From a virus, in IMG/VR virus record IMGVR_UViG_3300032156_000009, positions 1 to 60,386 of that record: a DNA stretch of 60,386 nucleotides. One strand, given 5' to 3'. How positions within the stretch are numbered: the first letter of the stretch is position 1; each line of letters begins with the position of its first letter. A program made the translations under genes and the position numbers. Shown piece after piece: positions 1-60,386 of the stretch. The notes under the pieces are model-generated. The model saw nothing but the letters and a program-made list of their open reading frames with translations. It did not search any database and was not told the origin of the DNA.

Positions 1-134
1 CTACTCGATGACTTCGTTTTTCATGATTACCGGTGATACATACCTTGTCGCGTCAGGTCGGCCAATGACGCCTCCGAAAGAGTTATTTGTATACCCTTCA
101 ACGGCGGTTACTGTATTGCCTGGGACTGATGGCT
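1..134. repeat. Left copy of terminal direct repeat
   Basis: Bases 1-134 match 60253-60386 except for one position (T at 127, A at 60379). The first 126 bases are identical. The repeat lies inside the portal gene, whose reading frame continues across the join. This is what a circular or circularly permuted genome looks like after assembly. A true short terminal repeat inside a coding gene is less likely. Confidence 0.9.
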
Positions 135-1165
135 TCGTTCAGACGATGCTAACGACGTTGTATTGGGGGACAGACTTATATACACGCGATGAAATAAATA
201 AACATTTCCGCTTTTTCAACAAAGAGAAGACGTCCGAAATCTGTCATATAAAACATTTCAATCCAACGACTATTCAATCCAATGTTTATGGAATGTCTCC
301 GCTCAACCCGATTTATTACGAGATTAACCAACATCAAAGCGCTAATAGACATAACTTATCCGTCCTAGAACGCGGGGCTACTCCAAGCGGAATAATGAAT
401 ATTGACCCTCCAATTGATCATGATTCTTTTGTACGTTTGCAACAGCAGATAGACAAGCAATTTGCCGGTTCTGCTAATGCAGGTCGGGTTATGTTAGTCA
501 ACGGGCTTGGTAAGTATGAGCGTACGACAATGTCACAAAAAGATATGGACTTCTTAGAGCTCAAAAAGGAAGTGATTATTTCCATCTATCGTAATCTAAA
601 AATTCCTCTTGCCCTTATCACGCCTGAAACTATGACATACGACAATATGACGCGCGCAATGTTGATGCTGTACGATCTGGCAGTTTTGCCAATGGCAAAC
701 AGAATCTTTAGCGAACTCACAAACTTCTTGATCCCTCGTTATGGCCAGGATGTAAACGATTTTGTTATCACTTACGACCAAGGCGAAATCATAGCGCTAG
801 AAGCTCGCAGAAATGAGCAACTTAAAGTTGTGAAAGAATTAGAGATATTAACTGTAAATGAACTGCGTGCGTTAAATGGCGCTGATCCTTTGGACGGCGG
901 AGATGCCATTTATGGAGCGGCAAGTGAGATACCGATTGCGATTGACCCGAATGGAAGCACTGGAAAGATAAACTACGATGATCAACCGGCTATTGACGAG
1001 ATAGGCGGAAACGATGAACGAATCGGCACAGCAAAACCAAAACCGAAGAAAACATCACGAAGTAAATTCGCTGAGATTTTGAAAGCGAAGGTAGGCTCTG
1101 ATGGAAAGCCTCTTTTTAGAGACGACGAAATCAACAAAATAGCTGATAAACATGGCCTCGAATAA
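1..1165 (+). CDS. Portal protein, C-terminal part (wraps from 59924)
   Basis: This is the C-terminal ~387 residues of an HK97-family portal protein. The start is at 59924, and the frame crosses the terminal repeat to give about 497 residues in all. The dodecameric portal is the DNA entry and exit channel at the unique capsid vertex and docks the terminase. The central part has the look of portal stem and clip regions (for example LKIPLALITPETMTYDN). The tail end is Lys-rich. The stop overlaps the next gene by 14 nt, typical of phage head operons. No internal damage is seen, and the 8 ATG is an internal methionine rather than the start. Confidence 0.88.
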   Translation, partial: YSMTSFFMITGDTYLVASGRPMTPPKELFVYPSTAVTVLPGTDGFVQTMLTTLYWGTDLYTRDEINKHFRFFNKEKTSEICHIKHFNPTTIQSNVYGMSPLNPIYYEINQHQSANRHNLSVLERGATPSGIMNIDPPIDHDSFVRLQQQIDKQFAGSANAGRVMLVNGLGKYERTTMSQKDMDFLELKKEVIISIYRNLKIPLALITPETMTYDNMTRAMLMLYDLAVLPMANRIFSELTNFLIPRYGQDVNDFVITYDQGEIIALEARRNEQLKVVKELEILTVNELRALNGADPLDGGDAIYGAASEIPIAIDPNGSTGKINYDDQPAIDEIGGNDERIGTAKPKPKKTSRSKFAEILKAKVGSDGKPLFRDDEINKIADKHGLE

Positions 1166-2078
1166 TGATTTTGATGAGTTAGATGACTTGGATGATCTTG
1201 ACGCGGATGAGCGGGAAGAACTAGAAGAGTCAGAAGACGAATCACCAGAGAAAGACGAAAATTCAAAAAGAAAGGCGTTGCTAGCCGCCGCTGCAGCGGC
1301 TCTTGCATTGACGATGAAACAAGAAAAAAAGATCAAGGAAAAGTTATCTGCACATTTTGACGCACTCTCAAAAGAAGTACGAAAATATTACGCAACCCAT
1401 TCAAAATTACCCCCGTTAGATGATCACAGAAACACAATCAAAGAAATCATACAGAGTCACTATATATCTACCGCAGGTTTTGCTTCCCGCATGTTTCGTG
1501 ATGAGTTTGAAGATGTCACAGACACAGACGGAGAGCTCATCAATTCGATCGTTGACGATAAAATTGATAGGGATGCAGACGAGCATAGCGATAGTGCTTC
1601 CGATCTCATATCAGACACGACAGAAAGCAATTTTAAGGATTACATTAAAGATGCGATAGCGATAGCTGCCACGGCCGGCGTGTTAATGTCTGCGCGTGAT
1701 ATAGGTGAGGCGATATCGGAGAAGTTTGACGAAACAGCAGAAGGTCGAATCGATAATATTTCTCTCACTGAAACAGGTATTGCGGTAAGTGATGGGAAGC
1801 TTGACGAAATACAAGCACTAGAAGACGTCAAGGCAGACTTTGAAGATGGTACTAACATAACTGAGTACGCGCGTACTAAAACGTGGGTAGCGATCCTGGA
1901 CGATCGTACGAGGCCATGGCATGAAGAAGCGGATGGGCAAACGGTAGGGGTTGATGAACCATTCGTCGTGAACGGTGAAGAGTTGATGATGCCGCGTGAT
2001 GACTCATTAGGGGCTAGTCCTGATAATTTAATAAATTGTCGTTGCGAAGGAGTGATTTCTATGGAACTTTTAAATTAA
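1152..2078 (+). CDS. Minor head / head morphogenesis protein (Mu gpF-like)
   Basis: This 308-residue protein follows the portal directly and overlaps its end. The N-terminal 50 residues are very acidic (runs of D and E), then comes an Ala-rich stretch. The C-terminal domain shows the Phage_Mu_F pattern: DDRTRPWHEEADGQTV, then INCRC near the end. In this family the protein is a minor capsid component needed for head assembly or DNA ejection. The gene meets a leftward gene tail to tail (8-nt overlap at 2070-2078). That is where the structural operon is interrupted by the 2070-5539 block. Confidence 0.82.
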   Translation: MASNNDFDELDDLDDLDADEREELEESEDESPEKDENSKRKALLAAAAAALALTMKQEKKIKEKLSAHFDALSKEVRKYYATHSKLPPLDDHRNTIKEIIQSHYISTAGFASRMFRDEFEDVTDTDGELINSIVDDKIDRDADEHSDSASDLISDTTESNFKDYIKDAIAIAATAGVLMSARDIGEAISEKFDETAEGRIDNISLTETGIAVSDGKLDEIQALEDVKADFEDGTNITEYARTKTWVAILDDRTRPWHEEADGQTVGVDEPFVVNGEELMMPRDDSLGASPDNLINCRCEGVISMELLN

Positions 2079-5753: not shown

Positions 5754-6527
5754 ATGCCATCAGCCAAAGAACACGCTGCAAAAAATGATTCAACCCGAAT
5801 GGAACATAAAATTTTCTCATTCCAGCTATTAGAAGCGATTGATACGAAATCAGACAGTTTCAATGAAACCGCTTGTTATGGTGTTGTGAAAGGCTATGCC
5901 TCTACTTATGGAAACGTAGATGCTTGCAATGACATCGTGTTGGAAGGCGCATTCTTGGAATCCATTCAAGACTACAAGAACAAAAATAGGCTGATAAAGG
6001 TTTACTACCAACATAATCCAATGGGCATGTCTTTACCTGTCGGCGGTATTAAACCCGAAAACATCGACAGCGATAAAGTGGGTTTGCCCGTTTCTATCGA
6101 TATCAACAAAGATGTCCAGCTCGCACGAGAAGTTTATTCGCTTACAAAACAGCGCGTACTCTGCGATATGTCCATTGGTTATAGCGTCGATGATTATTCA
6201 TACAATGCAGACGGTCAAAGACTTCTCAAAAAATTAAAGCTGTGGGAAGTCTCTATTGTCGGAGAACCAGCTAATTCGCTCGCCAAAATAAGCGAAGTCA
6301 AAACAAGAGATAAAAACAGATTTTTCACCATCGATGAAATTAAAAACATCGATACAAAAAGAGAATTAGAAGACGTCCTAAGAGAATCAGGAGCGTTTTC
6401 AAAAGAGGCGGCCGTTTATTTGGCCAGCCACTTTATCGAGAAGTCGCGGAGAGATTCCGAGCCATCACAAGATAAAGATATATTGAGTTCCATCGAGGAA
6501 CTTAAAAAACTATTAATCAAAATTTAG
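5754..6527 (+). CDS. Prohead protease (HK97-type, U35/S78)
   Basis: A 257-residue serine protease that cleaves scaffold and capsid N-termini during maturation. The core of the family is visible at residues ~45-165: VVKGYASTYGNVD, then YQHNPMG with the catalytic His, then CDMSIGYSV with the catalytic Ser, then LWEVSIVGEPAN. The C-terminal 90 residues are charged and may act as a scaffold segment. It sits 8 nt before the capsid gene, the normal order. The family members usually run 180-260 residues, so it is full length. Confidence 0.88.
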   Translation: MPSAKEHAAKNDSTRMEHKIFSFQLLEAIDTKSDSFNETACYGVVKGYASTYGNVDACNDIVLEGAFLESIQDYKNKNRLIKVYYQHNPMGMSLPVGGIKPENIDSDKVGLPVSIDINKDVQLAREVYSLTKQRVLCDMSIGYSVDDYSYNADGQRLLKKLKLWEVSIVGEPANSLAKISEVKTRDKNRFFTIDEIKNIDTKRELEDVLRESGAFSKEAAVYLASHFIEKSRRDSEPSQDKDILSSIEELKKLLIKI

Positions 6528-6535
6528 AGGTCAAT

Positions 6536-7798
6536 ATGCCATTAGATGTACAACCGCTAGATAACCTAACCCAGGTTGTCGGCCAATTACGCGAGCTTGT
6601 CGAGACGAAGTCCAAAGAGAGCGCGGAATATAAAGAAAAGATGGAAAAACTTTCCATCGCAATGGACAACGCAGAGAAGAAACAGAACGAATTAGTCGCA
6701 AAAATTTCTGCTGAGAAAGATGCGGCTAAATTAGCTGAGAAAGCATTAACCGATAAAATTGACCAACTTGAGACAAAAGCTTTCCGTCCGAATGGAAATG
6801 GCGAAATCAAAGTGAAGTCGGAATCAACCAGATCATGGGATAGAGCTATTCGTTCACCAGAGAGAGAGGGCACACTTTCAGAATTCAAAAAAATGTGCTT
6901 AGCCTCCGCTGATGAATATAACGCAGGTATTGATATTGAGAAGAAATATTTGCGCACTGATAGCAATATCGATGGTGGTTATCTATGCCCCCCAGAATGG
7001 GCAAAAGAAATTGCCAAGAAAAAGGTAGAAATTACCCCCATGAGACAATTGGCTCGTTCAGCGACTGTTGGTACAAAAGCTTGGGAACAACCGATCAGAA
7101 ATACCATTGCAGAAGCAACTTATGAAGGTGAAGCCGAGGCCGTTGGAGATACCAATTCACAATATGGTTTATTGGAAATCACCAACAATCGTTTAACCGC
7201 ATCAGTCCCTGTGACTTATGAAATGTTGAATGATGGACACTATGATATCCAAGCCGAAATCCAAAACGACATCACGATTCAATTCGCTAAAAAAGAAGGT
7301 TACATGTTCTTAAAAGGAACTGGTGCAAAACAACCTTATGGTTTGATGAATGATACTACTGTGCCAACAAGAGTGAGTGGCGTTGCTGCTGATATTACTT
7401 TCGACACAATCAAATTGGTCGTCGGTGATTTGAAAGTGGGTTATGACCCAACCTTCATGTTGAATCGTAAAACTGTTGCCTATCTTTCCACCTTGAAAAA
7501 CTCTATTGGGGCTTACTTGTGGCAAGAAGGATCAACCGGTGATGGCGTTCCTTCAACATTAGCTGGTCATCCTTATGTAAGAGCTATTGATATGGACGAT
7601 ATCGGTGCAAACCTTTATCCGATTATCTTTGGTGACTTCAAAGAGGGTTATCAGATTGTGGATCGTTTTGGTATGTACGTCATTAGAGATGAGATCACCA
7701 AAGCGAACAAAGGAATGATCAACTACATATTCCACCTCTATAACGGCGGACGTGTCAGATTATCAGAAGCCTTTGTCAAATTACAATGCCATGTCTAA
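6536..7798 (+). CDS. Major capsid protein, HK97 fold
   Basis: 420 residues. The N-terminal ~105 residues are a charged coiled coil (the delta/scaffold domain removed by the protease), and the mature region follows. Typical HK97-family signatures are seen: GGYLCPPEWAKEI at the start of the mature part, then ITNNRLTASVPVTYEML and the end HLYNGGRVRLSEAFVKLQC. A strong AGAGGTC ribosome binding site precedes it, as expected for the most abundant virion protein. Confidence 0.9.
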   Translation: MPLDVQPLDNLTQVVGQLRELVETKSKESAEYKEKMEKLSIAMDNAEKKQNELVAKISAEKDAAKLAEKALTDKIDQLETKAFRPNGNGEIKVKSESTRSWDRAIRSPEREGTLSEFKKMCLASADEYNAGIDIEKKYLRTDSNIDGGYLCPPEWAKEIAKKKVEITPMRQLARSATVGTKAWEQPIRNTIAEATYEGEAEAVGDTNSQYGLLEITNNRLTASVPVTYEMLNDGHYDIQAEIQNDITIQFAKKEGYMFLKGTGAKQPYGLMNDTTVPTRVSGVAADITFDTIKLVVGDLKVGYDPTFMLNRKTVAYLSTLKNSIGAYLWQEGSTGDGVPSTLAGHPYVRAIDMDDIGANLYPIIFGDFKEGYQIVDRFGMYVIRDEITKANKGMINYIFHLYNGGRVRLSEAFVKLQCHV

Positions 7799-47482: not shown

Positions 47483-47676
47483 AGTCTTGCCTCCTGTTCT
47501 ATAGCCTGTCTGACTAAGTCATACGATTGATCTAAATAGTGTATAGCCGATGACGTATAAGCAGCAGATGCCATTGTTTTGTTGTATTTTTGATATTTCT
47601 GTCTAAGCTTTAGCATGTCTTCTGCTATTAGCGCCAGCTCGTCGGCTTTTTTAAGTGAATTAAGTTCGTTCCTCAT
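47479..47676 (-). CDS. Hypothetical helical protein, 65 aa (paralogue of 49701-49898)
   Basis: LKKADELALIAEDMLKLRQK is shared with the gene at 49701 on the opposite strand. Predicted two-helix protein. Function is unknown. Confidence 0.55.
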   Translation of the reverse strand: MRNELNSLKKADELALIAEDMLKLRQKYQKYNKTMASAAYTSSAIHYLDQSYDLVRQAIEQEARL

Positions 47677-49594: not shown

Positions 49595-49630
49595 AGCTCT
49601 CTCCGTTGTTTTGTTTTATAGAAAGATAGT

Positions 49631-49659
49631 ATTCTATCTTTTAATCTGTATAATGTCAA
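49631..49659 (-). promoter_or_regulatory. Leftward promoter of the secreted protein gene
   Basis: On the minus strand TTGACA (49659-49654), 17 nt, TAGAAT (49636-49631). It lies 37 bases upstream of the signal-peptide gene. Confidence 0.7.
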
Positions 49660-49700
49660 TCTATTCCAGAAATCGAAAAGAAGGTGTAAAATATCACGCT

Positions 49701-49898
49701 ATGAGTACAAATCAATCTTTTAAAAAAGCAGATGAGCTAGTGATTATCGCAGAAGCTATGCTAAAGCTTAGGCAGAGATATCAGAAACATCAGAAAAACG
49801 AAACGATGCAACTGGCGATAAAATGCTTGAATAGCTCATACACTTTCGCCAAATTGGCGCTAGATGAAGAGGCCAAGCAATGCGAAATAAAAACATAG
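49701..49898 (+). CDS. Hypothetical helical protein, 65 aa (paralogue of 47479-47676)
   Basis: Start at 49701. SFKKADELVIIAEAMLKLRQ is near-identical in pattern to the leftward gene at 47479. The pair on opposite strands suggests duplication with inversion or separate acquisition. Function is unknown. Confidence 0.55.
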   Translation: MSTNQSFKKADELVIIAEAMLKLRQRYQKHQKNETMQLAIKCLNSSYTFAKLALDEEAKQCEIKT

Positions 49899-49914
49899 AA
49901 AATAAAAAGTGATT

Positions 49915-49933
49915 AAAGTAGAATATCTACTTT
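49915..49933 (+). terminator. Small hairpin between genes
   Basis: AAAGTAGA-ATA-TCTACTTT is a perfect 8-bp stem 22 bases before the next start. A-rich before, no long T run after. Possible attenuator. Confidence 0.35.
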
Positions 49934-49955
49934 ACAGAATATTCATTGGGTAATT

Positions 49956-50456
49956 ATGTCAAGCAAAGGAACAATAAAAAACCTAATTCCGTATAAGCCA
50001 GGCCAGTCTGGAAACCCAACGGGGAAACCTAAAGGAACAAAAGATAGAGCTACAATTTATCGTGATATCCTTGCATCAAGAGCAAAAGCGTTAAAACTTC
50101 CAAAGGTAAAAGAGCTAATGAAAGCTCTCAACGCCGCTGAGGACATTACGCTCGGCGAATTGATAGCCCTTAAAAACTCTACCATGTCCCTCTATACCAA
50201 CGCGCTAGGGCTGAAAGCCTCTGCTCACGTAGAAGACTCAGGCCATGGTAAGCTCACACAAAATACAGTGATAACAGGTGCAGACGGAACGCCTCTCGCT
50301 GTCAACATCGAGACGAAAACCGAGATGCAACATCAGGTGAAAGGCCTATCGGTTGAAGCTCTAAAAGAGATTCAGGATATCATTAAGAAGGATAAAGAAA
50401 AGAAGGCGGCGGAAGAAGAACAAATAAAAACATCGGCCGAGGCGGGAGCATCATGA
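49956..50456 (+). CDS. DUF5681-family protein, possible terminase small subunit
   Basis: 166 residues. The N-terminus YKPGQSGNPTGKPKGTKDR is the DUF5681 signature. Such genes often lie just before terminase large subunits or in packaging regions. Here TerL is 8 kb away and no other small subunit is seen, so this is the best candidate. The C-terminal part is a Lys/Glu-rich helix. Confidence 0.65.
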   Translation: MSSKGTIKNLIPYKPGQSGNPTGKPKGTKDRATIYRDILASRAKALKLPKVKELMKALNAAEDITLGELIALKNSTMSLYTNALGLKASAHVEDSGHGKLTQNTVITGADGTPLAVNIETKTEMQHQVKGLSVEALKEIQDIIKKDKEKKAAEEEQIKTSAEAGAS

Positions 50457-50614
50457 TTCTCCCTTGCGGCAAATCTTTTATCTATATGCATTCATCGCAT
50501 AATTATCATTTGTCGCGTGGAGATATCACCGCTTTTTTGTGTATAGAGGGCGTAATAATAGCGCTATTGATTTTTTGTATAATAATGGCTTTTTTAAATA
50601 ATAGAGATAACTAA
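50453..50614 (+). CDS. Membrane protein, 53 aa
   Basis: ATGA overlap with the preceding stop and GGGAG upstream. One membrane helix (CIEGVIIALLIFCIIMAFL). Function is unknown. Confidence 0.55.
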   Translation: MILPCGKSFIYMHSSHNYHLSRGDITAFLCIEGVIIALLIFCIIMAFLNNRDN

Positions 50615-50623
50615 AGGTGAAAA

Positions 50624-51010
50624 ATGAGTCAAAAAATATGGGTTAAAGATCAAGACGGTCTTGGGCTGTATCTGTGCGATAATATTGGCGGTAGATATAA
50701 ATCAGAATATGATGGCGCTGGAAATTTAATGAGATGTTTTTCTATTGTGACAGTTCTTGCATCGGGAAAAGAAGCAATATTGTGGGAAGGGATGGCTTTA
50801 GACGGAAAAGAGGGGGTAAGTTTAGGTGATAAACGAAAGTACATCGTCGACGCGATAGAAGAACAGATCCTAACTGGCTGTGATCATGTTTCTATTTCTG
50901 ACATCGAAGATGTGTACAAACACAGGAATGATAAATATGCCGGCAATAGTGATTTCAATTACGCTGACATAAAAAAAATGAGGGATGATCTGAATGGCTT
51001 TAACAACTAA
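50624..51010 (+). CDS. Hypothetical protein, 128 aa
   Basis: Mixed alpha/beta protein with a good AAAGGTGAA site. No family recognised. Next gene starts inside it (17-nt overlap). Confidence 0.55.
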   Translation: MSQKIWVKDQDGLGLYLCDNIGGRYKSEYDGAGNLMRCFSIVTVLASGKEAILWEGMALDGKEGVSLGDKRKYIVDAIEEQILTGCDHVSISDIEDVYKHRNDKYAGNSDFNYADIKKMRDDLNGFNN

Positions 51011-51230
51011 ACATTTTTTCTTTTCTGAAAGCGAGACAGACTTTCACATCCAGAAAAATGATGGGCTAGGAAAGGCACATGTCATCATAACGAAAAATCC
51101 CAAATCAATTAGCGAAGAGTCGATTGATATCGTACTATCAGCATCTCAGTTTGATGAATTGAATTTAGCATTTAGATGCTTCCAAGATTTTAAAGAGGAC
51201 AAAAAAGATGAAACTATTGCCGGAAATTGA
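50994..51230 (+). CDS. Hypothetical protein, 78 aa
   Basis: Small acidic protein with beta strands (HVIITKNPKSISEESIDIVL). Overlaps neighbours; its end overlaps the ferritin start by 23 nt, so they may be co-translated. Confidence 0.52.
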   Translation: MALTTKHFFFSESETDFHIQKNDGLGKAHVIITKNPKSISEESIDIVLSASQFDELNLAFRCFQDFKEDKKDETIAGN

Positions 51231-51699
51231 ACAGGCGATTAACGATCAGATCACGCTCGAGCGCTATTCTTCTGTTATGTACTTGCAGATGTCGTACTTC
51301 TTCCAGTCAATTAACTTGACCGGCTTTGCGAAGCTCTTAGCTGATCACGCAATCGAAGAAGCAGGACATGCCACAAAATGGGCTGACTACATTACTGATT
51401 GCGATAGTATGCCGGTGTTTCAATCTATCCAAGCCCCTGCACAATCAAAATTCTCTAGTTGCATAGAATTGTTTCAGACTGTGCTAGCGGCTGAACAAGA
51501 TACGACAAAGAACATTGTCGCACTATATGACCTTGCTATCGCAAAGAACGATCGTCCCACGCAGATTTTCGTCCAATGGTTTATCGAAGAGCAAATCAGC
51601 GAAGAGGCTGAGGCCATCGACATGATCAGAAAGTTACAGCTAATCGGTGGCGACAAAGGCGCTCTGTTAGAGATAGATGAAAAGTTGCAGGAAGAATAA
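51208..51699 (+). CDS. Non-haem ferritin
   Basis: 163 residues, the full length of bacterial FtnA. The four-helix bundle and ferroxidase residues are present: Glu18 and Tyr25 in LERYSSVMYLQM, Glu51 and His54 in HAIEEAGH, then the Glu in LAAEQDTT and WFIEEQISEE in the fourth helix. Ferritin 24-mers oxidise Fe(II) and store it as mineral. In phages it is unusual. It could store or withhold iron, protect from Fenton damage in infection, or be carried in virions. The end of the preceding gene overlaps by 23 nt, so it belongs to the same cassette and is not an isolated insert. Confidence 0.92.
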   Translation: MKLLPEIEQAINDQITLERYSSVMYLQMSYFFQSINLTGFAKLLADHAIEEAGHATKWADYITDCDSMPVFQSIQAPAQSKFSSCIELFQTVLAAEQDTTKNIVALYDLAIAKNDRPTQIFVQWFIEEQISEEAEAIDMIRKLQLIGGDKGALLEIDEKLQEE

Positions 51700-51711
51700 T
51701 CAAAATAAAAT

Positions 51712-51754
51712 ATCAAATTCAGTTGTACGAATTTCTCGTATAACTGAATTTGAT
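51712..51754 (+). promoter_or_regulatory. 19-bp hairpin after the ferritin gene
   Basis: ATCAAATTCAGTTGTACGA (51712-51730) pairs with its near-perfect complement at 51736-51754 around a 5-nt loop. The one G-U pair exists only in the + strand RNA. It is followed by AAAAAAGGTG, the ribosome binding site of the next gene, and not by a T run. It may stabilise the ferritin mRNA 3' end or control the next gene. Confidence 0.5.
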
Positions 51755-51768
51755 AAAAAAGGTGCTCT

Positions 51769-52101
51769 GTGAAAAAACAAAAAAAATCAATTTTTATTAA
51801 TGCAAATTCAATTTTGTTTTTTAACAAAGTTAAATCGATACAATTTAATGTCGATGTCAGAACCGCGAGCGGAAGAGAATATAAAGAATGTTTTGCCCCT
51901 GCTTTTATGTGTGTCGTTTTTGATGATGGCTCTTTTCAAGAATATCTAGTGCTTAAGAGTGATATTTATAACATAAAGAACAGAATTGATATGGGTTATG
52001 CTTCCGTTGCTTTTACCGACAAGTACAAGCCTATGATGGATCAGCATCATAAATTAATTGTTGAACTGAAAGATAACAAAGGTTCTAATGCCAAAAATTA
52101 A
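51769..52101 (+). CDS. Hypothetical protein, 110 aa (GTG start)
   Basis: Starts with GTG after AAAAAAGGTG. A beta domain (SIQFNVDVRTASGREYKECF) then a helix. No family recognised. Confidence 0.5.
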   Translation: MKKQKKSIFINANSILFFNKVKSIQFNVDVRTASGREYKECFAPAFMCVVFDDGSFQEYLVLKSDIYNIKNRIDMGYASVAFTDKYKPMMDQHHKLIVELKDNKGSNAKN

Positions 52102-52699
52102 ACAAGAAAAATAATCTTCCGAACTCGTCGACCTCTTCCACACCGAAAAGAGAAAGATCAACGATCTGATCCCCTTCGTCGGCAACCCACGCTCGATGAA
52201 CGAACATCAAGTCAATGCGCTCAAAAAGTCGTTGAAGAAATTCGGCGTTGCTGAATTGCCTGTGATCGACTCAGACAACGTCATCGTTGCAGGGCATCAA
52301 AGGCTAAAGGCTCTGCAAGATATTGGCTATGGCGAGGCTGAGATAGACGTACGCGTTGCATCGCGAAAGCTAACCGACAAAGAGTTTTCGATATACAACA
52401 TCGGGAGCAATAAGATAACGGGGGATTTTACGGATGAATTGTTTAATTTTGATTCTGAAATATTGCTAGATGCTGGCTTTACTCAAAATGAGATAGATAT
52501 TTTTTCACTCGGAGTTGATGATATTGGCGTAGAAAAAAGCTTTAAAGAATCAATAACGGAAGGTACTGAATTCACGGCTATTACATTCACGATAAAAAAT
52601 GAAGATTACTTCTTCATCAAAACCTATCTCGAAAATAAATCAAAAGAAGAACTCACAAAACAACTAGTGGAGATTTGCAAAAATGCCTCATTGCGGTAG
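52088..52699 (+). pseudogene. ParB-like nuclease/sulfiredoxin-fold gene with in-frame TAA
   Basis: From ATG 52088 the frame reads MPKIKQEK, then TAA at 52112-52114, then continues SSELVDLFHTEKRKINDLIP. The next ATG is at 52196. That stretch is the true N-terminus of a ParB-like domain (INDLIPFVGNPRS, then ALKKSLKKFGVAELPVI, then VIVAGHQRLKALQ). Translation from 52196 would lose the first strand. The domain normally sits before a phage methylase or acts as a nuclease. The gene is either broken, read through, or carries a population or assembly variant. Confidence 0.7.
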
Positions 52700-53000
52700 T
52701 CAAATTATTTTGTGTGATTTACCAATAAGAATGGATACATATACTGGGTGTTCTCATAATTGTACGTATTGTTTTACCAATTTTAAACTTGGTGAGTCGG
52801 CTGTAAAACCTTATGAATCAGTGCAAAGTTTGAAAAACTTCATTGATGGGAAAAGAAATGTTGAAACGCGATGGTGCGATTTTAAAATACCAATTCATCT
52901 TGGGGGTATGTCTGATCCATTACAGCCAGTGGAAGAAAAATACGGTATTACATATCAATGCTTATGCTTATTAGCTGAAACTAAATATCCTTTCTTATGA
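52683..53000 (+). pseudogene. Radical SAM gene, truncated
   Basis: Starts MPHCGSQIILCDLPIRMD; GCSHNCTYCF is a canonical CxxxCxxC [4Fe-4S] site. The family partner of ParB-like genes is ~300 residues in phages. This one stops after 105 residues (LLAETKYPFL), with only the first half of a TIM-barrel. The stop coincides with the end of a leftward gene (52981-53082), so the 3' part was probably lost by recombination. Confidence 0.65.
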
Positions 53001-53082
53001 GCTCAATTGTTTCATGATAGTACTGAAACCCCATTTTCTGCTCGTCGTAATTTTTTACAATTTCCTCAGCGATTGTTGACAT
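52981..53082 (-). CDS. Truncated small protein, 33 aa
   Basis: GAGGTTAATC lies before the ATG. The product (EEIVKNYDEQKMGFQYYHET) ends within the radical SAM gene end, so it is probably a remnant or short version of a longer gene cut at the same junction. Confidence 0.45.
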   Translation of the reverse strand: MSTIAEEIVKNYDEQKMGFQYYHETIELIRKDI

Positions 53083-53098
53083 GATTAACCTCGTGTTT

Positions 53099-53278
53099 CT
53101 ATTTTTCATCGATAGCAACGACTACGCATTCGTCGCATCTAACAATTTCAGTACGACCGCCATGCTGCCCTGGATTGATATAATCTTCTCGATATAAAGT
53201 GCCATCGGGGCTTAAAAAAAACGCATACACATTCGTAACGTCATGGTTGTCTTTTTTTCTGTAGACGTAGAATTTCAT
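53099..53278 (-). CDS. Small protein, 59 aa
   Basis: ACGAGGTTAAATT before the ATG. The start MKFYVYRKKDNHDVTNVYAF resembles other phage proteins with a short N-terminal beta domain; CDEC near the end could bind metal. Too short for most gene finders but well supported. Confidence 0.6.
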   Translation of the reverse strand: MKFYVYRKKDNHDVTNVYAFFLSPDGTLYREDYINPGQHGGRTEIVRCDECVVVAIDEK

Positions 53279-53284
53279 ATAAAT

Positions 53285-53797
53285 TTAACCTCGTGATAAA
53301 AATTCATTAAGCTCAACTGCCTGATAGCCCTCGTTCTCAAGTATAAAGAGTTTGTGGTGATCTTTTGTGACTAGCTTCTCTAGATCAGGCTCCCAGTTTT
53401 CGCGCGGGTTATTATGAAAGTGACCGTGGATGTTGATGTCAAAATATTTTGAATCATATTCAACAGGATAATGACTCAATAGGATGCGCTTATAATTTTC
53501 TATTATTCCATTGAACTCTGGTGTTATCGCATTCCATCCATGTTCCATATACTATTTGCAAGATTTTTTATCGTGATTTCCTGAAATTAGTGTTTTATTG
53601 AATGGGTATGTTGATAGTCTTTGATGCACTTCGATATCTTTTCCAAGACAGATATCGCCAAGGTGAAATAGCTGAGCATCAGAAGGAATTTTCTTTAAGT
53701 TCTCCCATATCAAATCCTCAAAGTTTTCAGGTCGCCCGCAATATTCAATCATATTTTTATGATTAAAATGCGTGTCGGAGATAATGTATATAGACAT
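53285..53797 (-). pseudogene. Metallophosphoesterase with in-frame TAG
   Basis: Two collinear frames in the same phase. The first half is SDTHFNHKNM (metal ligands), then LFHLGDICLG and ISGNHDKKS. After KKSCK comes TAG (53552-53554), then YMEHGWNAITPEF and LLSHYPVEYD, and GHFHNN at the end. All calcineurin-like motifs (D-x-H, GDxx, GNHD, H, GHxH) are present in sum. In the family the position often holds Trp (TGG), so one G-to-A change explains it. Such enzymes include 2',3'-cyclic phosphodiesterases. Confidence 0.7.
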
Positions 53798-53804
53798 AGG
53801 ATTT

Positions 53805-54476
53805 TTACTCTATTTGATGTTCATGTAGCAAGTCGCTTGCCTGTATCTTAGGCTGTTCTGTTCGCCAGTCATGTTTACCGTAGCGGTAATTCGGGAACTC
53901 TTTCTCTATTGTCGTCTCTCTCTTCATGATTCGCTTGACTAAATTTATGACTACTTTTGCCTCTTTTTGATCCCTGACTTCCATAGGAACACACAAGTTA
54001 ATTCCTATAGCCCAGGTGAGATGCTCTACTTGATATGATGGCCTCACTTCAAAATCAATACCAAACGTCTGCTTCTGCTTTAATATCGCCATATATCGTT
54101 CAAAATACTTATCATATTCTTCTGATGACGGGCTGCATTCATAACTGACAATAGTTTTTCGAGATTTGCCCGCTTTCTTGTAGTTCTTTTTCTCATTAGA
54201 GAAGAGATTTAATTTTGGTGCTTCTCCTGCTTCTTTGTGACTTATTTCGTTTATCTCATCTGAGTATTTCATTCGGGGGTGCTCCCACCATACCATCACG
54301 CGCCGCCTACCGTGGATAAACCCAAAATCATCCCACCAAGACAAGTCGTTTTCTGTAGGCTGTTTGTCTGAGTATAGATGACGTATGTATAGGCCATCTC
54401 CATTCAAATCCCATTGGTTATGACTGTGATATTCGCGCTGCATCTTACGCAGCAATTCATTGTGTTTGTTTTTCAT
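53805..54476 (-). CDS. Hypothetical protein, 223 aa
   Basis: His/Trp/Tyr-rich N-terminal half (WWDDFGFIHGRRRVMVWWEH) and a basic end. Similar proteins appear among unnamed phage genes. AGAGGTGCC site. No enzyme motif found. Confidence 0.55.
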   Translation of the reverse strand: MKNKHNELLRKMQREYHSHNQWDLNGDGLYIRHLYSDKQPTENDLSWWDDFGFIHGRRRVMVWWEHPRMKYSDEINEISHKEAGEAPKLNLFSNEKKNYKKAGKSRKTIVSYECSPSSEEYDKYFERYMAILKQKQTFGIDFEVRPSYQVEHLTWAIGINLCVPMEVRDQKEAKVVINLVKRIMKRETTIEKEFPNYRYGKHDWRTEQPKIQASDLLHEHQIE

Positions 54477-54590
54477 TCGGCACCTCTATTGAAATATACC
54501 TAATTCCTTCATTGTTGATCAATCTGAATGACTTTCAACTGTGGGTAGAAACGCAAAAAGTTGGAGGTGCAAAATGAACCGAGAATCAAT

Positions 54591-54627
54591 AAAAAAACCC
54601 AACTGCCAGAGTGAGGCAATTGGGTTT
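54591..54627 (-). terminator. Rho-independent terminator (leftward)
   Basis: Read leftward, AAACCCAA-T-TGCC pairs with GGCA-G-TTGGGTTT around TCACTCT. All 13 pairs form (one G-U), then TTTTATT follows. It ends the operon from 58396 and separates it from the 54476-52981 genes. A possible + strand frame at 54574-54669 overlaps it and is less likely. Confidence 0.8.
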
Positions 54628-54794
54628 AATAAAACGAACAACAAGCTGAATAATATGCGAATCAGATAAGGCGTTTTCAAATTTAGGATAACCGTTACGT
54701 TGGAGATGTTTGTTGAAAATACCTAATAACATATCGATACAAATTTTCAATTAATTCACTCCCCATATGCGGAATGCTACCTCCTTTCTTAGCG

Positions 54795-54853
54795 GCGACA
54801 TTCTTTGTCGAAAAAGCGACATTTTTTGTCGAAAAAGCGACATTTTTTGTCGC
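54795..54853. repeat. Three palindromic iterons, 21-bp period
   Basis: GCGACATTCTTTGTCG (54795-54810), GCGACATTTTTTGTCG (54816-54831) and GCGACATTTTTTGTCG (54837-54852) are separated by AAAAA. Each is an inverted repeat CGACA...TGTCG. The 21-bp period equals two helical turns, so proteins would stack on one face. It lies in the 54628-54915 gap, which holds nothing else clear. Operator or replication iterons are the options. Confidence 0.8.
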
Positions 54854-54915
54854 CCATTAGTTAGCGAGGGCAAATATTACTTTATCAAAGCAATTTTGCT
54901 CATTGTTAATATTAT

Positions 54916-55128
54916 TTAGGAGATTCTTATGACAGATAGTATCAATTGCAAATGGGTACTGGCCTCTTCTCTCCTTTTCTCTCGATAATTTCGATGTATG
55001 AGATTAACGATTTTTTTAATTGGTCTTTCATCTTCTTTTAATAACGCTCCTTCTCCAGCTGTTGTATAAACAAGCTTTCTCATGCAATGCAGAAATTCTT
55101 TTGCTTCTAAAAAGCTGTTACTTTTCAT
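54916..55128 (-). CDS. Hypothetical helical protein, 70 aa
   Basis: Basic helices (LVYTTAGEGALLKEDERPIK in the middle). AAAGGTGCTC site. Last gene of the operon that starts at 58396. Confidence 0.5.
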   Translation of the reverse strand: MKSNSFLEAKEFLHCMRKLVYTTAGEGALLKEDERPIKKIVNLIHRNYREKRREEASTHLQLILSVIRIS

Positions 55129-55325
55129 TGAGCACCTTTTTCATCTAAAAATTCAACATCAACTTTCTCATTGAGAGAAAATTTATGCACATCGGTTGGC
55201 GTTTTAAAATAAAACTTCGTATCAGTAACCAAGATTATTTCGCCTTCGACCGATCTATCTTCTACCCAGCTAAGCTTTACTTTCCTTCCTAATGTTATTT
55301 GTTTTTTCACTTTAGATAATTTCAT
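55125..55325 (-). CDS. MKLSx-domain protein, 66 aa
   Basis: MKLSKVKKQITLGRKVKLSW followed by GEIILVTDTKFYFKT. This is the small beta domain found at the start of the alpha-CTD protein and in the 312-residue protein. AGAAGGTGATC site. Confidence 0.6.
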   Translation of the reverse strand: MKLSKVKKQITLGRKVKLSWVEDRSVEGEIILVTDTKFYFKTPTDVHKFSLNEKVDVEFLDEKGAQ

Positions 55326-55335
55326 TGATCACCTT

Positions 55336-55515
55336 CTACAGATTTTTAATTAGCATCGTAAACATCGCAAATATAAAGGAGACAAGAGACAATATTCCAA
55401 AAAATATAGCGAATTTCGTATCAAGAAATAAGCATGTAAAGAAAAGATTAATCACAAACGAACACAGCCACTTGTATTCATTTTCCATCTTTTTTAACAT
55501 TTCTATTAGTATCAT
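55336..55515 (-). CDS. Membrane protein, 59 aa
   Basis: Two membrane segments after a short charged start. AGAGGTGCTC site; its ATG overlaps the previous stop (ATGA). Confidence 0.58.
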   Translation of the reverse strand: MILIEMLKKMENEYKWLCSFVINLFFTCLFLDTKFAIFFGILSLVSFIFAMFTMLIKNL

Positions 55516-55676
55516 TGAGCACCTCTACTTGCGTAAAAAAATTCACATTCACTTTCACTGTTAAAAGTTGGGTCGTTCTCGATATGATCTATCCACCAAC
55601 TGTTATGGTCTAATTCTTCTAAAAGTTTTATCTCTCTTTCTTTTAATGCTTCGAGCACACGCCAAAGAAGTTTCAT
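55512..55676 (-). CDS. Hypothetical helical protein, 54 aa
   Basis: Starts KLLWRVLEALKEREIKLLEE, one long helix, then polar. Overlaps the upstream and downstream genes by 4 nt. Function is unknown. Confidence 0.55.
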   Translation of the reverse strand: MKLLWRVLEALKEREIKLLEELDHNSWWIDHIENDPTFNSESECEFFYASRGAQ

Positions 55677-55861
55677 ATCACTACCCCATTATCAAAGTAT
55701 TCAATTCTGAGATTCTTTCTTTCTTTTTCATCGATCTCGTGGATTTCAAAATATGACCTATCAACCGTGAGTAGTGTTCCTGTTTCGCTAAGAACAAAAA
55801 AGTAATTTCCTCCCGTATCTACTTCTTTATTTTCTTTTATATTAAAAACTCGAAACTTCAT
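55673..55861 (-). CDS. Hypothetical protein, 62 aa
   Basis: Start at 55861 (AAGGTGCATT upstream). MKFRVFNIKENKEVDTGGNY resembles the YopX-like or other MKFR phage start. It lies 15 nt after the tRNA-Asn, so tRNA and mRNA may be cut from one transcript. Confidence 0.55.
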   Translation of the reverse strand: MKFRVFNIKENKEVDTGGNYFFVLSETGTLLTVDRSYFEIHEIDEKERKNLRIEYFDNGVVI

Positions 55862-55876
55862 AATGCACCTTCTAAA

Positions 55877-55951
55877 TGGCGATGCTGGCTGGACTTGAAC
55901 CAACGACCAAGTGGTTAACAGCCACTTGCTCTACCGCTGAGCTACAGCACC
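55877..55951 (-). tRNA. tRNA-Asn (GTT)
   Basis: 75 nt with encoded CCA. Acceptor GGTGCTG/CAGCATC (one G-U), D stem GCTC/GAGC, anticodon stem AGTGG/CCACT with loop CTGTTAA, T arm GTTGG-TTCAAGT-CCAGC. All arms are normal. It sits in the RtcB operon. Confidence 0.93.
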
Positions 55952-55961
55952 AAATAAATAA

Positions 55962-56038
55962 TGGCGGAGCGGATGGGGATCGAACCCATGACCCCTTGAT
56001 TGACAATCAAAGATTCTAACCAGCTGAACTACCGCTCC
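55962..56038 (-). tRNA. tRNA-Asp (GTC)
   Basis: 77 nt with encoded CCA. Acceptor GGAGCGG/CCGCTCC, D arm GTTC...GAAT, anticodon loop TTGTCAA, T arm ATGGG-TTCGATC-CCCAT. It begins 2 nt after the RtcB stop, so it is released from the rtcB transcript. Confidence 0.93.
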
Positions 56039-56040
56039 AT

Positions 56041-58104
56041 TTACGCTTTGATAACACCTAATGGACTAAGCTCAGCCAATATGTCGATCAAATCTAATTG
56101 ATTAGCCATGACGACATTAATGTCTTTATACGCGCTGGGGGCTTCATCTAAATCTTTTGCGTTACGTATAGCGTGTATGATCCCTTGATCATCAAGCATC
56201 TTTTTTTCAGCATCAAGGTTTAGAGTTCTTTGTGCTTCTTTTCTCCCCATCTTACGGCCTGCCCCATGAGAACAAGAATGGAAGCTTTCAGGGTTACCTT
56301 TTCCTGTCACTATATAGCTTTTTGTACCTTGAGATCCAGGGATAATACCTATCGTGTCCTCTCTCGCGAGCGTTGCCCCTTTTCGATGCACTAAAACATC
56401 TTGCCCGAAATGATGCTCCATAGCAGCATAGTTATGCGCGATGTTGATCATTGGTTCAAAGCCGCATTTTGTTATGTCGTAAAATATTTCTTCAACCCTA
56501 TCCATCATGAGTTTTCGATTAGCCAAAGCGAATTTAACGCAGTAATTCATTTCATCGAAATATTGTTGTCCTTCATCTTCCATGTCTAAGAATGCCAATT
56601 CTTTTTCTTTTGTGATTTTGCAGAAATACTTTTGATTGAGTTCAATAGCTTTGTGATTGTAATACTCTGCAACCTTTAGTCCAAAGTTCCTGCTTCCTGA
56701 GTGAATCATTACCCATATAAACCCATCAGAACCTTTTTGAATTTCGATGAAGTGATTGCCGCCGCCCAACGTTCCTATCTGATATAATGCAGAGTTGTAT
56801 TGTTGCGATACGACCGGGTATTTTTCTCTAAAGCACGTAACCGATTCTGGATAATGACTGTCATCCTCTGGCATCAAACTCTTATCTTGTATTTTTTCTT
56901 GATGATTAAAACCTACAGGAATGCGCTTTCTTATTTCGCCCATTATTTGTTTTAATGTTTTGGTTTCGAGAGATAACAAAGATGTTTTGATAGCGCACAT
57001 CCCGCAATTATGTACAAAAACGCCAGCAGATAATGCAAAATTATGGTGTTTTTCGACTGTTAGACAATAAACATCTTCTTTTCTGCTAATCTTCTTTGTA
57101 AACAGCAATTTGTGGTTGTTTCGTTTAAATCCATATTTTTTTCCATTTTCGGATGATTTAGCTCTCCCATTAGCCGATTTATTATAAGCAATTAAGAATT
57201 TAGCCCCTCTCTTACCAGAGAGTTTGTCATTTTCTTTCTTTTCTTCACTTTTGTTGTAAGCGTCGAGGTTTGCTAGGGCAATACTCTTTTTCTTCTCCTT
57301 AAATATAGGAGAGAAAAACCCATTTTCCCTTAGGGTTAATAGTCTCTTTTCTTTAAAAGAATCTTTTTTGAATGTTTCGTTTTTTAGCCCATGATGCCTG
57401 CTGTGATCTTTTGCGCTTTTATACTCCAAGTTTGAAGGGTCATTATTAAACCAATTTCCATCTTTGTGATGTACAACAAAGCATTTTGTGCCTTCTCCAA
57501 TAAAATATTTCGCGACCATTCGATGGGTGGCGCAACCAGCGGATGATGTTGTTTTTAAAAATTCATACCCATCTCTTGTTTGATATGTCCTGTATAATGG
57601 CATTAGAGAATCAAAATTTTGAAGATCTTCGGCCTTTTTATAAGTTCCGTCTGTTAACATAAATTGATGATCAGGCGTGCATTTTATTGATTCTCCTCCG
57701 CTTACGACAACCTCCATTAATTCAGCGTTCTTTCTTGTTAGCTTTGGAGTGGCTTTGCCAGGCACTATACGAAGATTTTCATCTAAAGAATAAACATAGA
57801 CATCCATTCCTGCGTCATACAGTTCTTTTAATGTTTTTTGTGTACCATTTAAAAGGGGTATTTTTGTATCACCAGAAAAACATCCAATATCTACACCAAC
57901 TGCATTGGGTACTATATATCCCTTCGTGGCCATTACTCCGCCTATAGGCATCCCATAGCCTTGATGGCTATCAGGCATTATCGCGATGTGTTTAAATGCG
58001 AACGGTAATTCGGCCAGATTCTTTGCTTGTTCTAAAGCTCCATCTTCGATGTCATCAAGCCATAGTTTGATCGGTAATCCGCCGTATTGTATTACTTTTT
58101 TCAT
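56041..58104 (-). CDS. rtcB: RtcB RNA ligase precursor with intein
   Basis: 687 residues, of which 395 are RtcB and 292 an intein (residues 75-366). RtcB joins 2',3'-cyclic phosphate or 3'-phosphate to 5'-OH ends with GTP and Mn. Conserved parts: MPDSHQGYGMPIGGVMA, VGVDIG-CGMCAIK after splicing, HSGSRNFG, and the guanylylated His in SFHSCSHGAGRKMGR. The GTP and metal sites look complete, so it should be active after splicing. It is the first large gene after the zinc protein at 58396 and is followed by two tRNAs. In several bacteria RtcB, Ro60 and Y RNAs share an operon. Here they lie about 19 kb apart. Confidence 0.93.
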   Translation of the reverse strand: MKKVIQYGGLPIKLWLDDIEDGALEQAKNLAELPFAFKHIAIMPDSHQGYGMPIGGVMATKGYIVPNAVGVDIGCFSGDTKIPLLNGTQKTLKELYDAGMDVYVYSLDENLRIVPGKATPKLTRKNAELMEVVVSGGESIKCTPDHQFMLTDGTYKKAEDLQNFDSLMPLYRTYQTRDGYEFLKTTSSAGCATHRMVAKYFIGEGTKCFVVHHKDGNWFNNDPSNLEYKSAKDHSRHHGLKNETFKKDSFKEKRLLTLRENGFFSPIFKEKKKSIALANLDAYNKSEEKKENDKLSGKRGAKFLIAYNKSANGRAKSSENGKKYGFKRNNHKLLFTKKISRKEDVYCLTVEKHHNFALSAGVFVHNCGMCAIKTSLLSLETKTLKQIMGEIRKRIPVGFNHQEKIQDKSLMPEDDSHYPESVTCFREKYPVVSQQYNSALYQIGTLGGGNHFIEIQKGSDGFIWVMIHSGSRNFGLKVAEYYNHKAIELNQKYFCKITKEKELAFLDMEDEGQQYFDEMNYCVKFALANRKLMMDRVEEIFYDITKCGFEPMINIAHNYAAMEHHFGQDVLVHRKGATLAREDTIGIIPGSQGTKSYIVTGKGNPESFHSCSHGAGRKMGRKEAQRTLNLDAEKKMLDDQGIIHAIRNAKDLDEAPSAYKDINVVMANQLDLIDILAELSPLGVIKA
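57007..57882 (-). mobile_element. Intein with HNH homing endonuclease in RtcB
   Basis: Starts at Cys75 (CFSGDTKIPLLNG, block A), block B-like ESIKCTPDHQF, an HNH region (FVVHHKDGNWFNNDPSNLEY, then AKDHSRHHG), and the C-terminal splicing blocks VYCLTVEKHHNFAL and VFVHN, followed by the +1 Cys of the host protein. It interrupts exactly at DIG-C-GM, the metal-binding Cys of RtcB, a site also used by archaeal RtcB inteins. It can be removed only by protein splicing. The ~110 residues of Lys-rich sequence after the HNH are unassigned. Confidence 0.9.
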
Positions 58105-58147
58105 CTCGCACCTTCTTTTTATATTTCAACTTAAATCTTACGTGGCT

Positions 58148-58396
58148 TCATTTCTTATACTTCTCCGATTTTTCAAAAAATGGGTAAATATCCCATGATT
58201 TATAGGGAATTATTTCTAAAGAATCAGGTGCCGCATCTATATTTCGTTGCTTCCGCCTCTTTCGTAGCTGCCGGCATTTGTTTGAATCGGTTATAGCCGT
58301 CTTCAAACCATAAAATTCTTTACCGCACTCTTGGCACGTATGTTTTACTATTTTTCGCATATGCGATAATGTAGACGCTGCTAGATTTTTACTCAT
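58148..58396 (-). CDS. Small zinc-binding basic protein, 82 aa
   Basis: CQECGKEFYG followed by KCRQLRKRRKQRN is a one-knuckle zinc finger with a very basic segment, probably nucleic-acid binding. It is the first gene behind the shared operator-type promoter. Confidence 0.55.
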   Translation of the reverse strand: MSKNLAASTLSHMRKIVKHTCQECGKEFYGLKTAITDSNKCRQLRKRRKQRNIDAAPDSLEIIPYKSWDIYPFFEKSEKYKK

Positions 58397-58439: not shown

Positions 58440-59915
58440 ATGCTATCACAATATTTCGACCACCCAGACTTTGAATCAGAAATAGAACGCAATCTCTGCG
58501 AGAAAAGTTTTATTGAGTTTGTGAAACGCGCGTGGGAGATAGTTGACCCTGATGTGTTTATGCCGGCATGGCATATTGAATGTCTCTGTGTTCATGCAGA
58601 AGCTTTTAGAAGGCATGATTTTCCTATTGCGGACATAAATATTTCGCCAGGTCACGCGAAAAGTCTAATTTTCTCCGTGATGTTCCCTGCGTGGGTATGG
58701 ACGACAGAGCCAGGTATAAGATTTTTGACTGGCTCTCACAATAAAGACTTGGCCATTCGAGATACTTTAAAATCTCGTCGTCTAATAGAAAGCGAATGGT
58801 ATCAAAAACATTGGGGGCATCTCTTTCAGCTTACAACCGATCAAAATACAAAAGGGAATTATGAGAATAATAAGTTTGGTTCTCGTGTAGCATTCTCAAC
58901 AACCGGCGGAACTACTGGTTTACGTGGTGACTTTATCATCTTAGATGACGCGCTCAGCGCCGAACAAGCGGCGTCAGACGTGGAGAGAGAGGGGGTTAAT
59001 ATATTCCTCCGCGAAACTCTTTTTAATCGTCAGAACATCGTCAAAGAAACTGGCATTATTGGTATTGGGCAACGCTTTCATCCTCACGATTATCATGAGA
59101 TTTTGTTATCACTCCCTGGCTGTTTTCACCTCGTTTTGCCAGAGGAATATGTGCCGGAAAAAGCATCTACTAGCCCGTACTATAAAGATCCTCGAACACA
59201 AAGAGGTGAGCCACTTTGGAACATAAAAAAGTTTAGTCCTGATGGTATAAAATTATTAAAGATAACGTTGGGGGCGTCGGGGTACGAAGCTCAGTATCAA
59301 CAAAATCCATTGATACAAGAGGGCTCAATACTCAAACGCGGGTGGTGGAATTACTACAAACCTTCCTCTATCATAAACGAGCCAGGGAAGATAATTTTGT
59401 CATGGGATTGCGCCGCGAAAGACAAAGAAAAAAATGACTACACAGTTTGTCTCGTAGCAAAAAAGATCGGGAATAAATTTTATTTAATGCACTTGTATCG
59501 GAAAAAGGTAGAATTCCCACAACTCAAAAGAGATTTTACAGCGACGGCAGATACTTACAAACCGCATGTAATCTACATTGAGGATGCATCTAATGGCGCA
59601 CCATTAATACAAGAGATGAAACTAACTGCGTATAAAAATATGATCAACCCCCCTAGGATTGAAAACAGAGTGAAGATTGATCCAGGGAAAACGGGCGGTA
59701 AAGACAAAGTTGCGAGGGTTAACCCCGTTACCCCAGTAATTGAAGCAGGATGGGTTTTCATCCCAGAAGATGCCGAGTGGAAAGGAACGTTTGTAGACGA
59801 ATGCTCTGCTTTCCCGCTCGGCGAACATGACGACTGCGTTGATGCTTTAAGCTTGCTTTTAAATAACGAGCGAGTAAATATAGTCCCTGAAATTGCATTC
59901 GTTAACATTCGATAA
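58440..59915 (+). CDS. terL: Terminase large subunit
   Basis: 491 residues. ATPase: ISPGHAKSL (Walker A-like), then ETLFNRQNI and FIILDDAL (Walker B). Nuclease: SWDCAAKDKEKNDYT, VIYIEDASNGAPLI and EHDDCVDALSL supply the acidic residues of an RNase H-like fold. It packages DNA through the portal, encoded next. No ribosome binding site precedes the ATG, which lies directly after the divergent promoter, so a leaderless transcript is possible. Confidence 0.92.
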   Translation: MLSQYFDHPDFESEIERNLCEKSFIEFVKRAWEIVDPDVFMPAWHIECLCVHAEAFRRHDFPIADINISPGHAKSLIFSVMFPAWVWTTEPGIRFLTGSHNKDLAIRDTLKSRRLIESEWYQKHWGHLFQLTTDQNTKGNYENNKFGSRVAFSTTGGTTGLRGDFIILDDALSAEQAASDVEREGVNIFLRETLFNRQNIVKETGIIGIGQRFHPHDYHEILLSLPGCFHLVLPEEYVPEKASTSPYYKDPRTQRGEPLWNIKKFSPDGIKLLKITLGASGYEAQYQQNPLIQEGSILKRGWWNYYKPSSIINEPGKIILSWDCAAKDKEKNDYTVCLVAKKIGNKFYLMHLYRKKVEFPQLKRDFTATADTYKPHVIYIEDASNGAPLIQEMKLTAYKNMINPPRIENRVKIDPGKTGGKDKVARVNPVTPVIEAGWVFIPEDAEWKGTFVDECSAFPLGEHDDCVDALSLLLNNERVNIVPEIAFVNIR

Positions 59916-59923
59916 AAAAATCT

Positions 59924-60386
59924 ATGAAAAACCCTCTTCACTTTCTCGGATCAAAACTCTTTTCAAAAACAGTTCAAAAGAAAAATATGTCACCCATTGA
60001 TACAGCTTGGGATTTTGGGAATCTATACGACTATTTTACTCACTCTCAAAACTTTCTTATCACTAAAATTTTGGCCGTTAGTTACTATACAAAATGCTCT
60101 CCAATATACAACGCCATTGACTTGATCGCGGCTAACGTAGCGAATTTAATACCTAAAGTTTGGGACAAGAAAAATGAAATTTGGGTGGAAGATCATCCGG
60201 TGCTTGACTTGCTTAAGATGCCAAACGCGGATATAACTTTTTACGAACTCATCTACTCGATGACTTCGTTTTTCATGATTACCGGTGATACATACCTTGT
60301 CGCGTCAGGTCGGCCAATGACGCCTCCGAAAGAGTTATTTGTATACCCTTCAACGGCGGTTACTGTATTGCCTGGGACAGATGGCT
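59924..60386 (+). CDS. Portal protein, N-terminal part (continues at base 2)
   Basis: Starts 8 nt after the terminase stop. The first 110 codons precede the terminal repeat (YYTKCSPIYNAIDLIAANVA, then VWDKKNEIWVEDHPVLDLLK, the HK97 portal start). Codon 111 lies at 60254, equivalent to base 2, so both parts form one ~497-residue protein. The last 134 bases of the window are the repeat. Confidence 0.9.
   Translation, partial: MKNPLHFLGSKLFSKTVQKKNMSPIDTAWDFGNLYDYFTHSQNFLITKILAVSYYTKCSPIYNAIDLIAANVANLIPKVWDKKNEIWVEDHPVLDLLKMPNADITFYELIYSMTSFFMITGDTYLVASGRPMTPPKELFVYPSTAVTVLPGTDG
60253..60386. repeat. Right copy of terminal direct repeat
   Basis: Copy of bases 1-134 with a single difference (A at 60379 against T at 127). 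In the reading frame this changes the codon ACT to ACA, both Thr, so a silent population variant or a read error is likely. Confidence 0.9.

Follow-up and report, generated by a model that had tools for sequence, protein, structure and literature searches.

Ferritin, a cage protein, serves cells as a safe iron store, and a gene for such a protein in the window (the whole stretch of DNA analysed, 60,386 bases in length) raises the question of whether it is a genuine phage gene and, if so, what it would do for a phage. The record is circularly closed by a 126-bp end repeat (1–126 = 60253–60378) and represents a complete tailed-phage genome of about 60.25 kb, with virion genes for terminase, portal, MuF, S78 protease, HK97-type capsid, tape measure and baseplate J. 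This closure, together with the phage genes that flank the ferritin on both sides, confirms the proposal of the initial annotation that the gene is phage-encoded. Contamination or a prophage edge as the source of the window is rejected by genome closure and gene content. With regard to the host, the CsrA protein matches mainly gammaproteobacterial phages, and the terminase large subunit (TerL) matches alpha- and gammaproteobacterial phages.

The coordinates of the locus and of the packaging and head genes are collected in Table 1. Elsewhere, the window encodes an RNA-repair-like set consisting of an Rnl2-like RNA ligase, a Ro60/TROVE protein and RtcB with an intein (2596–3468, 35778–37097 and 56041–58104); the Ro60/TROVE protein is 55% identical to a plasmid protein of Deinococcus gobiensis. 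CsrA (34839–35153; 52% identical to that of contig L089) and an SPFH/Band 7 protein (31763–32662) are also present.

Table 1. Features of the ferritin locus and of the packaging and head genes in the window.
Feature	Position	Strand	Evidence or remark
DUF5681 protein	49956..50456	+	PF18932, E 2.5e-7
ORF, 128 aa, no assigned function	50624..51010	+	Pfam, PHROGs searched
Upstream ORF, 78 aa, no assigned function	50994..51230	+	overlaps ferritin start by 23 nt
Shine-Dalgarno-like AGAGGA	51194..51199	+	sequence; 8 nt 5' of ferritin ATG, within upstream ORF
Ferritin gene, 163 aa, bacterial-type non-haem ferritin	51208..51699	+	Pfam, PHROG, AF2, Foldseek; start codon ATG
Hairpin between ferritin and next ORF	51711..51755		20-nt arms, 5-nt loop
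ORF, 110 aa, no assigned function	51769..52101	+	starts 69 nt after ferritin stop
ParB-like protein	52196..52699	+	phrog_620, E 6.9e-17
Block between ParB and TerL: RtcB with intein, two tRNAs, others	53099..58396	-	
Terminase large subunit	58440..59915	+	phrog_38, E 5e-86; PF17289
Portal, first part (gene crosses closed end to 1165)	59924..60386	+	
Portal, second part	1..1165	+	PF04860, E 1.7e-37
MuF-like head protein	1152..2078	+	PF04233
Prohead protease S78	5754..6527	+	PF04586, E 5.6e-24
HK97-type major capsid protein	6536..7798	+	PF05065, E 1.6e-53

The protein itself is readily identified. Pfam Ferritin (PF00210) matches residues 9–146 with an E value of 8.3e-32, and phrog_16594 matches residues 5–160 (E 5.8e-24), which implies that related phage or prophage proteins have already been clustered. 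A sequence search of the PDB gives 277 distinct matching sequences, the top one being the ferritin of Archaeoglobus fulgidus. The AlphaFold (AF2) model has a pLDDT of 97.4 and contains five helices (5–34, 38–64, 85–112, 116–146 and 150–162), i.e., the four-helix bundle with a short fifth helix that characterizes ferritins of 160–175 aa, and in Foldseek it superimposes on FtnA-type ferritins with TM scores of 0.94–0.97 (0.95 for 1s3q, 0.94 for E. coli FtnA). Chance as the source of these matches is excluded. The chain ends at residue 163 without a long tail, and it matches the Ferritin and FtnA models, with no match to a bacterioferritin model. Its score against the NCBIfam FtnA model (PRK10304), 97.7 bits, lies below the curated cut-off of 178, indicating a true ferritin but not a close FtnA orthologue; the identity to E. 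coli FtnA is 37%. The protein is therefore an ordinary kind of ferritin, and the initial description of it as full-length is borne out.

The same description had all ferroxidase ligands present, which holds for sites A and B and does not hold for site C. In the alignment with E. coli FtnA and relatives, sites A and B are complete (E18, E51, H54, E96, Q129 and E132, corresponding to E17, E50, H53, E94, Q127 and E130 of FtnA), and Y25 and E128 are present as well; the ferroxidase and iron sites are named as is usual for the family. The third iron site is one ligand short, since FtnA E129 is replaced by Ser131, while E50, E128 and E132 are retained. Site C (E49, E126, E129 and E130 in FtnA) is usual in the family and dispensable for oxidation. 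Glutamate occupies both positions 50 and 131 in 50/50 host sequences compared. Among viral ferritins, position 50 is Gly or Asp in 10/45 (Fisher p 3e-4, uncorrected for kinship), and position 131 deviates in those of the window and of contigs L140 and L211. Residues E18, Y25, E51, H54, E96, E128 and Q129 are conserved in the window and in 44/44 other non-redundant viral ferritins. Because the search patterns required E128, Q129 and E132, and E131 for part of the set, unbiased counts are limited to E18, Y25, E50, E51, H54 and E96. The conservation of E18, Y25, E51, H54 and E96, upon which the patterns made no demand, suggests selection on ferroxidase activity. With its catalytic di-iron pair complete, the gene is probably a working one, and ferroxidase activity is predicted. 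A phage Dps was also considered as an identity and ruled out by the intra-subunit ligands of FtnA type, the FtnA fold and the fact that the nearest structures are ferritins.

The ferritin gene belongs to a + strand group (49611–53000) and has accessory genes as neighbours; TerL follows some 7 kb further downstream. We take DUF5681 proteins, one of which is encoded in this group, to be small-subunit-like and common neighbours of terminases. Two small ORFs, 47479–47676 and 49611–49898, are alike (KADEL..IAE.MLKLRQ.YQK), lie on opposite strands and are apparently paralogues. The gene had been regarded as coupled to its neighbours on both sides; the overlap of 23 nt with the upstream ORF agrees with this, but downstream the two genes are separated by a 69-nt gap with a hairpin. 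On the far side of this gap, the homologous ParB frame opens upstream of the annotated start, at about 52117, behind an in-frame TAA. Within 52090–52700, the frame reads MPKIKQEK, the stop and then SSELVDLFHTEKRKINDLIPFVGNPRSMNEHQ..., homologous to the N-terminus of the relatives, so the ParB gene may be damaged or start elsewhere. Beyond it, within 52683–58396, a radical-SAM ORF is truncated exactly at the start of the reverse-strand block with RtcB (intein and HNH) and tRNAs. The distance between ParB and TerL is within about 2 kb in L089, L161 and L211. Taking into account that the relatives lack the block and that the radical-SAM ORF is interrupted at its border, it was probably inserted here.

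The hairpin had been noted earlier with a stem of 19 bp, as a possible tuner of ferritin expression. It does exist, with arms that are complementary at 19/20 positions and a folding energy of -27.1 kcal/mol, compared with -7.8 ± 2.3 kcal/mol in shuffled sequences (z -8.3). It is the most perfect inverted repeat in the whole window, and it has A-rich flanks on both sides. A role as a standard terminator for ferritin was dismissed, since no T-run is found on the + strand. Comparison with Rfam gives no match, and inspection of the hairpin by eye reveals no likeness to a Fur box or iron operator. The gene after ferritin overlaps or abuts its stop in the contigs L089 and L211 and begins 3 nt later in L103; consequently, the hairpin is not common to these relatives.

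A near-identical host gene, named in advance as evidence against the proposal, was not found when 84,980 species genomes were screened for 8-residue patterns of ferritin and the results taken on to tblastn. The scan gave four relatives of the phage ferritin, the best at 43%; sampling of 250 genomes from the phylum of the best hit gave at most 44%, and 148 genomes from a second phylum gave at most 41%. The closest cellular relative found is thus 42–44% identical, and recent capture from a host is rejected on this basis. A ferritin of their own is frequent in the gammaproteobacterial and most other cellular hosts sampled.

The second finding that would have spoken against the proposal, the lack of the gene in any related phage, is contradicted by three distantly related phages that carry ferritin at the same place. 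Two of them, L089 and L103, were first met via ferritin and share with the window the portal (38–40% identity), MuF (36%), protease (39–41%) and capsid (33–34%); L089 additionally shares ParB and the CsrA mentioned above. In a ferritin-blind check, IMG/VR was scanned with a portal alignment that had L089 and L103 among its rows, and 27 records were then checked for ferritin. The gene was present in the contigs of L089 and L103 and in a new one, L211, found without using ferritin, in which the order is ferritin (36%), ParB, TerL, portal (33%) and MuF (37%). Ferritin lies upstream of TerL-portal-MuF in all three, with ParB between in L089 and L211. The ParB-like protein is 34% identical to those of L089 and L211 and 36% to that of L161. 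When records with portal identity of at least 33%, a TerL of the family and sequence that reaches upstream of TerL are counted as relatives, ferritin is present in three and absent in one, L212 (54 kb). L160, L161, L209 and L210 end too early to be counted; L160 and L161 are near relatives (capsid 68%; portal of L161 66%), and as their contigs stop before the ferritin place they are uninformative on ferritin.

Across the relatives, the identity of ferritin (33–36%) resembles that of portal (33–40%), major capsid protein (MCP; 33–34%) and ParB (34%). With its counterparts at a matching place in related phages, the gene looks kept rather than a recent accident. The ferritin region of the relatives also takes unrelated extras, namely HTH, GNAT, metallopeptidase and methyltransferase genes. 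When ferritin, DUF5681 and ParB were used as single queries in search of close relatives, the scans yielded no match or a single weak one. A further set, L002–L055, shares TerL alone, with no portal or capsid similarity and no ferritin in the 30 searched, and these were set aside as poor relatives.

In a tree of 73 ferritins, a branch with moderate support (81/82) separates those of the window, L211, L140, L089 and L103 from the rest, and L140 has ParB, ferritin and TerL in a row, its TerL belonging to the same PHROG family. As long as L211 was missing, the window had another position or was unresolved, as in a tree of 100 ferritins lacking it, and the AU test gave no rejection of the group (p 0.24). 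One old acquisition of ferritin in the lineage is favoured by these sequence comparisons, short of proof. The ferritin gene has the highest GC3 (0.51; 0.23–0.42 for the other 20) and the lowest codon fit (0.63) of the 21 genes measured, and this combination may reflect a later replacement by a related gene.

How widespread such genes are depends on the collection considered. The initial annotation held ferritins to be rare in phages, and tblastn of 50,697 GenBank phages supports this, with no verified phage record carrying ferritin at E 5 and likewise no verified relative for two viral ferritins used as queries; against it stand about 44 non-redundant viral ferritins obtained from IMG/VR by alignment and pattern scans. 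Six GenBank matches are unannotated metagenome or assembly contigs, UNVERIFIED where checked, and were not trusted as phages. In IMG/VR, records L069–L088 and L092 were accepted as prophage-edge or contamination cases, in which host ferritins are swept in at prophage edges. The TerL match also occurs in 11/38 ferritin records tested, and L136 and L143 carry nearly identical ferritins in two contigs, forming a separate phage lineage. Ferritin domains within longer ORFs, possibly fusions, occur in L105 (9542–10441, 299 aa) and L158 (8018–9280, 420 aa).

Several of these phages have ferritin inside the head module. The orders observed, in which x denotes another gene, are TerL-x-ferritin-portal-S78 protease-MCP (L127, L128), ferritin-portal-x-x-protease-MCP (L116, L129), ferritin-protease-MCP (L117, L118), TerL-portal-ferritin (L101, L125), TerL-x-ferritin-portal (L108) and portal-ferritin-x-MCP (L094, L096, L104, L112, L155). 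Outside the head module, ferritin stands beside replication genes in L136/L143, in accessory regions of large or jumbo phages in L119–L132, and likewise elsewhere in L109/L126. Adjacency to head genes is found in 5/15 lineages, for which a rough binomial p is 0.013 if the chance rate is 0.1 and 0.16 if it is 0.2. Since this value hinges on the chance rate assumed, the pattern is strong by eye and modest by number.

What computation establishes is the fold, the presence of the di-iron ligands, the completeness of the phage genome and the place common to related phages. What the gene does is best explained, in our judgement with fair though far from full assurance, by a late-made, iron-oxidising and iron-storing ferritin with sites A and B complete, long kept at the upstream edge of the packaging and head genes. 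The protein would be made late in infection together with the packaging genes, and its subunits would assemble into a 24-subunit cage that uses O2 or H2O2 to oxidise Fe2+ and keeps the iron as a ferric mineral. Withdrawal of labile iron from the dying cell could then reduce Fenton damage to the phage DNA, and the infected cell might be kept working until lysis. For gut phages that carry Dps and Mn-catalase genes, the same chemistry has been proposed (PMC8008677).

It is unlikely, by comparison, that the ferritin is carried in the virion, with the cage built into the head or prohead, where it would serve the packaged DNA or the cell infected next as a supply of iron or as a safeguard. The occurrence of ferritin inside the head modules of several unrelated uncultivated phages would fit such a role, and HK97-fold shells with ferritin-like cargo, the encapsulins, do exist (PMC11202242). 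However, the ferritin of the window is about 7 kb from TerL, among accessory genes and at a place where the relatives carry unrelated extras, other lineages place it in replication or jumbo-phage accessory regions, and the frequency of head adjacency is sensitive to the chance rate, as noted above. The broader form of this idea, in which ferritin is a recurrent, inherited head-module gene, virion-borne or used in head assembly, and a viral counterpart of the encapsulin-ferritin pair with site C relaxed accordingly, is to be regarded as similarly doubtful.

Less probable still is iron hoarding, in which iron would be locked away from host defences or rival phages, or filled cages left for nearby cells after lysis. 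Ferritin is a bulk iron store, and this property of the family is compatible with hoarding. The Ferrojan Horse idea ties iron to phage entry (PMC11705849), and giant viruses have a ferritin that is interpreted as nutrient control (PMC7136201). On the other hand, among the scanned genes of the window none was recognised as an iron uptake, siderophore or Fur-like gene, and nothing points to rivals. Very improbable, finally, is a functionless gene captured by chance from a host or brought in by bacterial contamination, to which the outlying GC3 and the host ferritins swept in at IMG/VR prophage edges could point, but which is opposed by the closed phage genome with phage genes on either side, host relatives of at most 44% identity, related phages with ferritin at the same place and the conserved active-site residues.

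If the gene works as an iron-storing ferritin, a phage lineage controls iron in the infected cell, with consequences for Fenton damage to packaged DNA, for the iron that lysis sets free and for the question, raised by the Ferrojan Horse idea, of iron in virions. What appears to be new is a phage lineage that seems to keep ferritin beside its packaging genes with site C relaxed; the recurrence of ferritin in head modules of unrelated phages is new as well. Searches of the open-access literature returned Dps and Mn-catalase of phages, ferritin of giant viruses, and encapsulins, but no account of ferritin beside the packaging genes or in the head modules of phages.

Among known systems, the protein is closest to FtnA-type ferritins (E. 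coli FtnA, 1eum; A. fulgidus, 1s3q), which it resembles in full length, five helices, TM scores of 0.94–0.96 and sites A and B. It differs from them in being at most 37% identical and phage-encoded, with Ser in place of Glu129 of site C. The family phrog_16594 is present in PHROGs, where it has no assigned function and is unannotated as ferritin. The Dps and Mn-catalase of Gratiaviridae and gut phages are likewise phage-borne enzymes of the ferritin-like superfamily, proposed to curb iron and peroxide, but they are not classical ferritins (Dps is a 12-mer), and the available part of the source reports no packaging-module location (PMC8008677). The ferritin of giant viruses is also virus-encoded, but these are eukaryotic viruses, the reading is of eukaryotic type and there is no link to phage packaging genes (PMC7136201). 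Encapsulins offer a parallel at the level of gene organization, in that genes for an HK97-fold shell and a ferritin-like protein share one neighbourhood (PMC11202242). In the phages the shell is a capsid accompanied by portal and terminase, and the protein that might be its cargo is a classical ferritin. The recurrence of ferritin among terminase, portal, protease and capsid genes ties it to HK97-type capsids in a way that can be put to the test.
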